Below, piece after piece: positions 11,618 to 12,954 of a DNA stretch of 52,605 nt. The notes below the pieces were generated by a model. That model made no database searches. It was given only the letters and a program-made list of their open reading frames with translations, and was not told the DNA's origin. Every line of letters starts with the position of its first letter. Position 1 is the first letter of the stretch. The DNA is from Chloroflexota bacterium (GTDB taxonomy: Bacteria > Chloroflexota > Dehalococcoidia > UBA2247 > RBG-13-53-26): positions 1 through 52,605 of the forward strand of contig VGOE01000005.1 of the NCBI GenBank assembly GCA_016876035.1, in the 5' to 3' direction. Made by a program: the position numbers and the translations under genes.

Positions 11618-12445
11618 TTGACAAGCGAAGAAAAGGCGAAAGGCAAGAGTTGGCTGACAGGGCTATTCAGGTGGCGCAAGGGATTCAATGAGGTCCTGAT
11701 AGTTGGTCTTGTCTATGGAGCCTACCGGCTGGCCAGCGGCTCCATAGATGCCAAGAAAATAGTTGCCCTTGAGAATGCCCATGACGTTATACATTGGGAA
11801 AGGCGTATGGGGCTTTTCCATGAGCCGGATTTTCAGGCCTTTTTCTTAAGGAACAAGATTCTTCTCAACATAGCCGATACACTCTACACCCTTTTGTATT
11901 ATCCAGCTCTCGTCCTGTTCTTCTTCTGGGCCTACAACCGCCATCGGAAGGAGTATTACATAGCGCGCAATGTCTTCCTTGTTTCCGCCGGCATAGCGTT
12001 TCTATGTTTCGCTTTTTATCCTGTGGCCCCGCCCAGGATGTTACCCATATTTGGCTTTGTTGATACCATGAAGGGCTATGGCGTGGTAAACTACGACTCA
12101 CCAATCTTGCGAAATCTGGCCAATCCCTACGCAGCTATGCCGAGCCTCCACTTCGCCTGGACACTGCTGGTGGGAATAGGCATCTTCTGCATAGTGAAGG
12201 CCTGGTGGGGGAAAGTGCTGGGTGTCTTCGTACCCCTGGGGATGTTCGTGGCCATAGTAGCTACGGCCAACCACTTCATCCTCGATGCTGTTGCCGGGGC
12301 CGTGCTTCTCGGGCTGTCCTACGGTGTGGTAATGCTCTTTAGCGCTTTGAGGCATCGTGTCAGCTTTGCTGAACTCAGGGCAATGCTTCCCAAGAGGGCA
12401 CGGGCTGCCTCCAAGAGCGGCGAAGTCCAAGGACTTGACGGATGA
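11618..12445 (+). CDS. PAP2-family (inositolphosphotransferase-like) membrane protein
   Basis: A 275-residue protein with about six hydrophobic segments. The PAP2 phosphatase motifs are visible as AMPSLHFAWTL (motif 2, catalytic His) and ANHFILDAVAGA (motif 3). The order and the FYPVAPPRM segment resemble the PAP2_3 branch that contains inositolphosphorylceramide synthase AUR1-like enzymes and bacterial lipid phosphatases, so it probably acts on phospholipid head groups in the membrane. The start is a TTG preceded by GAGGTG. Its last codons overlap the -35 box of the promoter at 12435-12463, so the following leader RNA is transcribed separately. Confidence 0.85.
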   Translation: MTSEEKAKGKSWLTGLFRWRKGFNEVLIVGLVYGAYRLASGSIDAKKIVALENAHDVIHWERRMGLFHEPDFQAFFLRNKILLNIADTLYTLLYYPALVLFFFWAYNRHRKEYYIARNVFLVSAGIAFLCFAFYPVAPPRMLPIFGFVDTMKGYGVVNYDSPILRNLANPYAAMPSLHFAWTLLVGIGIFCIVKAWWGKVLGVFVPLGMFVAIVATANHFILDAVAGAVLLGLSYGVVMLFSALRHRVSFAELRAMLPKRARAASKSGEVQGLDG

Positions 12446-12463
12446 CCTTTATTATGGTATATT
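12435..12463 (+). promoter_or_regulatory. Strong sigma-70 promoter for the leader RNA
   Basis: TTGACG (12435-12440), a 17-base spacer and TATATT (12458-12463). It overlaps the 3' end of the PAP2 gene. The expected transcription start is near 12470, about 45 bases before a short ORF and the structured leader. Confidence 0.75.
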
Positions 12464-12513
12464 CGAGCCAGAGCAGGATTGGACCATCCGGAATAAAGAT
12501 CGGGAGGTGTACC

Positions 12514-12558
12514 ATGAAGCTCAATCTAAGATATGGGGTCTGGCAGTTTATTAGGTAA
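12514..12558 (+). CDS. 14-codon leader ORF (MKLNLRYGVWQFIR)
   Basis: A short frame with a strong Shine-Dalgarno GGGAGGTG at 12502-12509 directly before its ATG. It ends in AGG TAA at the exact point where the structured leader begins. The product has one Trp, one Phe, one Tyr and no repeated codon of the kind seen in classical attenuator peptides. It follows the promoter at 12435-12463. Its translation could affect folding of the downstream hairpins. It is too short to judge coding by composition; the evidence is the ribosome binding site and its position. Confidence 0.5.
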   Translation: MKLNLRYGVWQFIR

Positions 12559-12645
12559 TGCCCTGTCTGACGAGGGCAGGGCGGGCAAAGCCAGTAGGCG
12601 GCTGGGAGCCTACGTTTAGGTGGCATAGGTCACCTTAGAGCTAGA
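12553..12645 (+). ncRNA. Structured leader RNA, c-di-GMP-I (GEMM)-like aptamer candidate
   Basis: Consecutive elements match the order of a class I c-di-GMP aptamer: AGGTAAT, a hairpin GCCCTG..CAGGGC (12560-12582), then GGGCAAAGCC (12583-12592), a second hairpin GTAGGC..GCCTAC (12594-12613), and TAGGTGGCATAGGTCACC. In the known aptamer the equivalents are GGCAAA, a tetraloop hairpin, GACGCAAAGCC and AGGTAGC..GGTTACC. GGU would pair with GCC around the first hairpin. The first hairpin has a long loop rather than a plain GAAA, so this would be a variant. A third hairpin and a terminator follow. No covariance search was possible. Confidence 0.45.
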
Positions 12646-12660
12646 ACCCGTGAGGTCTAG
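12641..12660 (+). promoter_or_regulatory. Leader hairpin between aptamer and terminator
   Basis: CTAGA(A)CC - CGTGA - GGTCTAG forms a stem just before the terminator. It could be part of an antiterminator or simply a spacer stem. Confidence 0.4.
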
Positions 12661-12682
12661 CCAAAAAAGCAAAGGACTGCGG

Positions 12683-12718
12683 TGGAGGGCACTTCAAGAA
12701 GTGCCCTCCAGTCTTTTT
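12683..12718 (+). terminator. Intrinsic terminator of the leader RNA
   Basis: TGGAGGGCACTTC / GAAGTGCCCTCCA is a perfect 13-base inverted repeat, followed by GTCTTTTT. The hairpin ends the transcript that starts near 12470, about 240 bases before cysS. Confidence 0.85.
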
Positions 12719-12954
12719 CTGAGAGCGGCCCAAAGGGAGTGGAAAATCAAAACTAAACAACCTTGAGAAGGAAAACTGGTTTTGAAACAAAAGACAGCCA
12801 TGCTAAAATGAGAGACAAAGTCAATCCTTCCCCATAAGCCTTTATCGGTCCCAGACGAGGCAAAATCAACCGCCCGGATCAAAAGGTCTTTGTGGGATGC
12901 AAACCTGACCGTTGCGAAATTTCTTCCTCTGCTGAAAGGAGTCCAAGGAAGACG

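Follow-up and report, generated by a model that had tools for sequence, protein, structure and literature searches.

Architecture of the window locus

The window (the whole stretch of Chloroflexota DNA analysed here, 52,605 nt in length) carries, upstream of its cysS gene, a compact series of expression signals around a very short reading frame. The features are as follows.

12435-12463, + strand: sigma-70-type promoter, TTGACG-17-TATATT with TG ahead of the -10 box; 10 of 12 consensus matches
12502-12509, + strand: Shine-Dalgarno (SD) sequence GGGAGGTG, read from the sequence
12514-12558, + strand: 14-codon small open reading frame (sORF) encoding MKLNLRYGVWQFIR and a stop; a member of the M[RK]L(H)xxYGVWQVDx-stop family in which FI replaces the consensus VD
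12553-12559, + strand: 7-nt spacer from the position of the consensus Asp codon (here ATT, 12550-12552) to hairpin P1; contains the stop codon
12560-12582, + strand: hairpin P1, GCCCTGTCT/GGGCAGGGC, nine pairs; from folding, covariation (helix 1) and a covariance-model match
12584-12664, + strand: 3' structured domain; from folding and comparison with relatives
12594-12613, 12618-12635 and 12640-12661, + strand: separate hairpins of the 3' domain, where most relatives have stem P2 enclosing P3 and P4
12683-12718, + strand: intrinsic terminator, TGGAGGGCACTT-CAAG-AAGTGCCCTCCA, GTCTTTTT; 12 pairs and a T run

These features delimit a predicted transcript of about 250 nt with its own predicted promoter and terminator. 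The original prediction had called the promoter, a strongly initiated 14-codon ORF, hairpins behind it and the terminator, and had named cysS as the next gene; all of these were borne out. The RNA is predicted to fold more stably than all 200 of its dinucleotide shuffles (z = -3.96 for the transcript and -3.25 for 12548-12668), the terminator ranks strongest among the 16 candidates in the first 20 kb, and cysS, recognised by its match to TIGR00435 (E = 1.3e-164), lies approximately 170-240 nt beyond the RNA. A second promoter-like site (TTGAAA-16-TAAAAT with TG, 12782-12809) is found between the terminator and cysS.

A family of related units in the Chloroflexota

Might such a layout have arisen by chance? 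That it exceeds chance is argued by a paralogue in the same genome (G000, contig C34:10054–10284), which is 82% identical and encodes MKLQARYGVWQVDK, and by a homologous family that extends across the phylum. In a distant relative, L005 (peptide MRLHVRYGVWQVDW), the order of promoter, SD, ORF, hairpin and terminator is kept and the remaining sequence has changed. What the family conserves is the ORF, the hairpin that follows it at 7 nt, a long-range stem and the terminator. TTGACA-type boxes occur at the equivalent position in most relatives, a GGAGGT-type SD (5 or 6 of 6 positions) in nearly all, together with the start codon, and most of the RNAs are closed by similar terminators.

A degenerate peptide pattern was found in 41 of 393 Dehalococcoidia genomes and its reversed version in none; records of this class that carry the peptide include JAQUOC010000019.1, JAUVWM010000019.1, DIFA01000026.1 and DAOWDD010000070.1. 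A covariance model, R1, built from an alignment of 36 Dehalococcoidia loci, matches the window at 12498-12630 (57.5 bits, E = 1.8e-16), 83 of the 393 Dehalococcoidia genomes and, among 340 genomes of the phylum Chloroflexota, 26 that belong to other classes. R1 includes the ORF and P1, and its matches are thus no independent evidence for those parts; the loci found by the peptide pattern only, without use of the hairpin, are independent for the hairpin. When 22 of the matches in other classes were inspected, a GVWQVD-like core was rightly placed in 21, as in the peptides MYPLKSPQVAWGVWQVDR and MVRLHKVFGVLQVD; the remaining one, L179, is degenerate. Every sampled member of clades f51, f67 and f80 has the family, and none is listed for f18, f24 or f47. 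Because presence follows clades in this way, vertical inheritance is suggested.

The family was found neither in Rfam nor in the open literature that we searched. On these comparisons we regard it as close to certain that the family is real, translated, structured, phylum-wide and undescribed in Rfam and in the open papers searched.

Selection on the encoded peptide

The peptide core, [Y/F/L/W]GVWQVD, occupies approximately codons 7–13 of the ORF, and its Asp codon is codon 13 in 77 of 88 distinct units. Within these 88 units, the core residues are conserved as G in 81, V in 86, W in 68, Q in 78, V in 71 and D in 74, and the synonymous codons are widely mixed: the third position of the first Val codon has an entropy of 1.90 of 2 bits (GTA 36, GTG 20, GTT 15, GTC 15), Tyr is encoded by TAT in 24 and TAC in 23, and Asp by GAC in 49 and GAT in 25. 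Because the amino acids are kept while third codon positions vary freely, we conclude from the alignments that the sORF is translated and under selection as a peptide. The strongly covarying structure described below would also be expected of a pure noncoding RNA with an ORF present by chance, but the codon-position pattern, the conservation at the protein level across classes of the phylum and the retention of the SD make that explanation very improbable. In one locus (L171:111-185), the core is duplicated within a single ORF (AFLGAWQVDQAFLGVWQVD), and a hairpin again lies 7 nt past the last Asp codon.

A covarying fold at a fixed distance from the Asp codon

The conserved fold consists of a hairpin after the ORF (P1), followed by a long stem (P2) that encloses two hairpins (P3 and P4). 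This structure was defined by hand from one row of the 36-locus alignment (L046) and applied to all of it. With the partners in register, 82.3% of the paired cells can pair, as against 33–49% when they are slid by 1–3 columns; the derivation from L046 favours the unslid version in this comparison, and the compensatory counts are less exposed to the bias. Changes on both sides were observed in 31 of the 39 pairs, and compensatory cells number 133, where shuffles give 58±7. In P1, 90% of cells are paired; P2 joins segments approximately 90 columns apart and has both-side changes in 12 of its 13 pairs. In other classes, the outer pairs of P2, aligned by eye, read UCAGG/CCUGA, UCGGG/CCCGA, UCGAG/CUCGA and UCCGG/CCGGA. 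The P1–P4 fold is therefore conserved by the computed comparison in the Dehalococcoidia set and by eye in the other classes. Comparison of homologous loci, which the original prediction had named as a check, thus found both the ORF and a fold conserved among relatives. In the core clade, a pairing of the terminator arm GTGCCCTCC with the SD region or with P1 looks possible; as a feature of the family this alternative pairing was rejected, since it is not preserved in the terminators of other clades.

How is the hairpin placed relative to the reading frame? In the 88 units, the distance from the Asp codon to the start of P1 is 7 nt in 48 and 6 nt, usually with one extra pair, in 26. The pattern-only set (n = 49) has P1 at 7 nt in 27 loci and at 6 nt in 16. 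In 61 of the 88 units, one codon separates Asp from the stop; in the other 27 the stop falls elsewhere, and P1 still begins at 7 nt in 12 of them and at 6 nt in 6. Where the stop immediately follows Asp, in loci of other classes (L168, L171, L175, L177 and L178), a conserved GCCC begins 7 nt on. Because the spacing from Asp to P1 holds wherever the stop codon falls, it is, as judged from these alignments, the distance from ribosome to hairpin that is constrained, and not the end of the peptide.

Genomic surroundings

By approximate counts based on gene calls from a simple script, the next gene is convergent at about 35 and co-directional at about 51 of about 86 loci. The downstream genes are functionally unrelated and differ from clade to clade. 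Because the next genes vary in this way and are often convergent, the RNA is in most cases a free-standing gene, which supports in substance the earlier suggestion of a separate small RNA. A cis-regulatory role for the whole family was rejected because of the orientation and function of the neighbours.

A constant downstream gene in cis, as expected of an arrest leader, was found only in one divergent clade and in the operonic copies of clades f77 and f78. In the divergent clade, an orotate phosphoribosyltransferase (OPRT, pyrE-like) gene is co-directional in 12 loci (L126, L128, L130, L137, L138, L139, L144, L146, L147, L160, L162 and L166), some of which are the same genome counted twice, and, at the loci recovered, it follows the start of the sORF by 200-280 nt. 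Here the RNA may serve as a cis leader, and at some of these loci the last hairpin is succeeded by weak T runs. A wider association with pyrimidine genes, outside this clade, was considered and rejected: the neighbour in L078, with GAF and phosphoribosyltransferase domains, is no homologue of the OPRT gene, and a PyrK-like neighbour in L068 is isolated. In f77 and f78 (L060, L061, L141, L142, L148 and L041), the sORF and hairpin are found inside operons that encode small secreted proteins unmatched in Pfam; one such copy follows a gene pair that resembles an ECF sigma factor and an anti-sigma factor.

Other neighbourhoods are shared more locally. In f51 (L054, L057, L058, L059, L064 and L065) the RNA lies directly behind a prolyl-tRNA synthetase gene and shortly upstream of nusA, in conserved synteny. 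L117 and L050 share an upstream GreA-like gene and a downstream histidine kinase, and this kinase is distantly related to one that adjoins the paralogue in the window genome (L073).

Relation to known RNA classes

The original prediction had read the order AGG.AA ... GGCAAAGCC ... AGGTxGC..GGTxACC in the leader as that of a class I c-di-GMP aptamer. This reading did not survive. Local strings of the window copy, GGCAAAGCC and GGTxACC among them, do resemble that aptamer, but relatives lack the order, and even the 82% paralogue has lost the strings, with GCCAAAGCT at that place. The Rfam covariance scan returned no match to RF01051 (gathering threshold 35 bits) in the window or in 20 relatives; at E<=10 the window region itself had none, and at loose thresholds neither did the canonical relatives. 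A whole-genome search for RF01051 gave no match in its positive controls either and so carries no weight here. At the gathering threshold, Rfam reports two tRNAs in the window and nothing else; at E<=10, the RNA region has a single irrelevant snoRNA match. More generally, no known Rfam family gave a useful match in the window, the 20 relatives or the canonical members; the sole near match, in which one relative's P1 hairpin resembled an L31-Firmicutes leader below threshold (22.4 bits against a gathering cut-off of 33.3), was taken as chance. Such a riboswitch stands in cis before the gene that it regulates, and the frequent convergent neighbours (about 35 of about 86 loci) do not fit this. 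The likeness to the c-di-GMP-I riboswitch is thus confined to a handful of short strings at the window locus; the family differs from that class in fold, in distribution and in covariance score, and we consider it, or any other known aptamer, the least probable explanation of all.

Several other origins were considered and rejected. For tmRNA or a tmRNA replacement, RF00023 gave no match on the RNA, and a separate tmRNA scores above the cut-off in 15 of the 16 genomes searched. For a phage origin, two scans for viral contigs gave no match. For a trp-type attenuator, the ORF has a single Trp codon and no codon run, and the neighbouring genes are unrelated.

A proposed mode of action

We propose that the family combines a micropeptide mRNA with a structured RNA, in which peptide and P1 pause the ribosome and the 3' part acts mostly in trans; we give this reading a probability of about 0.5. 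The nascent chain ending in YGVWQVD would fill the exit tunnel as Asp occupies or enters the P site, and P1 would then stand at the mRNA entry of the ribosome. Peptide and P1 would jointly pause or arrest the ribosome, and the paused or released state would determine how the structured 3' part folds, how stable it is or how active; in most genomes, this part would act in trans. In the two side branches with OPRT and with small secreted proteins, the same sORF-hairpin cassette would act in cis. A coupling between a translated ORF and the RNA structure that it meets had already been raised in the original prediction, and in substance the comparison supports it.

When the Asp codon occupies the P site, 10 nt separate P1 from the first base of that site. 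At distances of 11–12 nt, hairpins have been reported to block A-site binding, slow translocation and pause ribosomes (PMC7282821, PMC8861025), and the ErmBL peptide stalls when Val9-Asp10 are at the P site (PMC4935803). The conserved GVWQVD at a fixed distance from P1 would fit arrest-peptide residues beside the peptidyl-transferase centre, if the ribosome does stop at a defined codon there. Because of the fixed Asp-to-P1 geometry, the published pausing by hairpins and the Val-Asp arrest of ErmBL, ribosome pausing by peptide and hairpin is likely by analogy. Against pausing, P1 has about 8-9 bp, whereas the stem length reported to be best for pausing is 11-12 bp, and it stands 1 nt nearer than the tested distances. 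The co-directional OPRT gene, conserved in its clade, fits a cis leader and counts against action in trans, and the window copy, without VD and the canonical P2–P4, counts against the model at that locus. A narrower version, in which a 13-residue arrest sequence, the sole protein product of the gene, is locked to a hairpin 7 nt away and forms a stand-alone device that would monitor the ribosome's state and pass the signal on in trans through the 3' domain, and not to a gene in cis, is put forward tentatively, as a possible but doubtful specialisation.

The conserved peptide could instead act after release. It would then be the product itself, with a role as effector or signal inside the cell, while the hairpins would do no more than stabilise a tiny mRNA and end transcription. 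The free-standing genes, a peptide more strongly conserved than the RNA sequence and the existence of trans-acting 14-aa leader peptides (peTrpL, PMC7298713) agree with this. Yet the C-terminus is not fixed: of the 27 stops that fall elsewhere, some lie immediately behind Asp and others up to 75 nt away, reached through variable sequence, and what is fixed instead is the distance from Asp to the hairpin. The detailed covariation of P2–P4 also exceeds what an mRNA stabiliser needs, and we judge a released product to be unlikely. Quite unlikely, too, is a transcription or translation attenuator, in which stalling on the sORF would control read-through into the next gene. An sORF with alternative hairpins and a terminator is the typical layout of such devices, and the OPRT gene of the divergent clade and the secreted-protein genes that follow in f77 and f78 would be fitting targets; but convergent neighbours are frequent, the downstream genes share no function, the terminators are strong and look unconditional, and in the window itself cysS is set apart by its distance and by the additional promoter-like site. 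The family may act as a trans regulator, as a peptide effector or, in some clades, as a cis leader; pausing with a mostly trans-acting 3' part is the reading that we prefer.

Divergence of the window copy

The peptide of the window keeps GVWQ and has FI instead of VD (GVWQFIR), and the RNA lacks the canonical P2–P4, its 3' domain having been remodelled. By comparison with its relatives, the window copy is thus evidently a diverged paralogue, which may work differently or be decaying. In another genome, G138, six paralogues (L120-L123, L136 and L023) differ after GVW or its equivalent, with QVTS, IFPS, LEYQ, MEVYS, KYPE and LEIQ. Diversification of the peptide end after GVW is thus a recurrent feature.

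Comparison with known systems and significance

As in dual-function small RNAs, most units are free-standing, with a promoter and terminator of their own by sequence consensus, an ORF under selection at the protein level and a conserved RNA fold. The closest parallel in form is rnTrpL of Sinorhizobium meliloti, a small terminated attenuator RNA with a 14-aa ORF, in which both the RNA and the peptide peTrpL are reported to act in trans (PMC7298713). That transcript is leaderless and comes from a trp operon leader (PMC7298713), whereas the Chloroflexota RNA carries a promoter of its own and a strong SD, encodes another peptide, is followed by no constant gene and is conserved across the phylum. 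ErmBL is likewise a short peptide with Val-Asp, arresting at the P site with Lys in the A site; it differs as the cis leader of a resistance gene that needs a macrolide, and a hairpin at a fixed distance is not part of its definition (PMC4935803). The two peptides have no homology beyond VD.

The hairpins of dnaX and HIV, which act in frameshifting and pausing, also stand at the mRNA entry channel with a given codon in the P site (PMC7282821, PMC8861025); by comparison, the Chloroflexota RNA shows no slippery sequence, has a shorter stem and pairs its hairpin with a conserved nascent peptide. The cyanobacterial downstream-peptide and yfr6 RNAs join a structured element to a short conserved ORF in about 250 nt (PMC2864571), but there the aptamer lies 5' of the ORF, whereas here the structure lies 3' of it, and sequence and fold are unrelated. 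The toiL uORF senses the state of the ribosome through stalling, as is proposed here, but it is a cis uORF of topAI and not free-standing (PMC12121999).

The family is a gene that annotation has missed, too short for protein calling and too coding for the discovery of noncoding RNA, although it is conserved across classes of a major phylum. Its fixed geometry of peptide, spacer and hairpin makes a sharp and testable prediction of the site at which the ribosome would pause. If the proposed mode of action is true, the repertoire of arrest peptides would gain a form that is free-standing and acts in trans, and the family would point to an unknown translation-linked regulator in these mostly uncultured bacteria.
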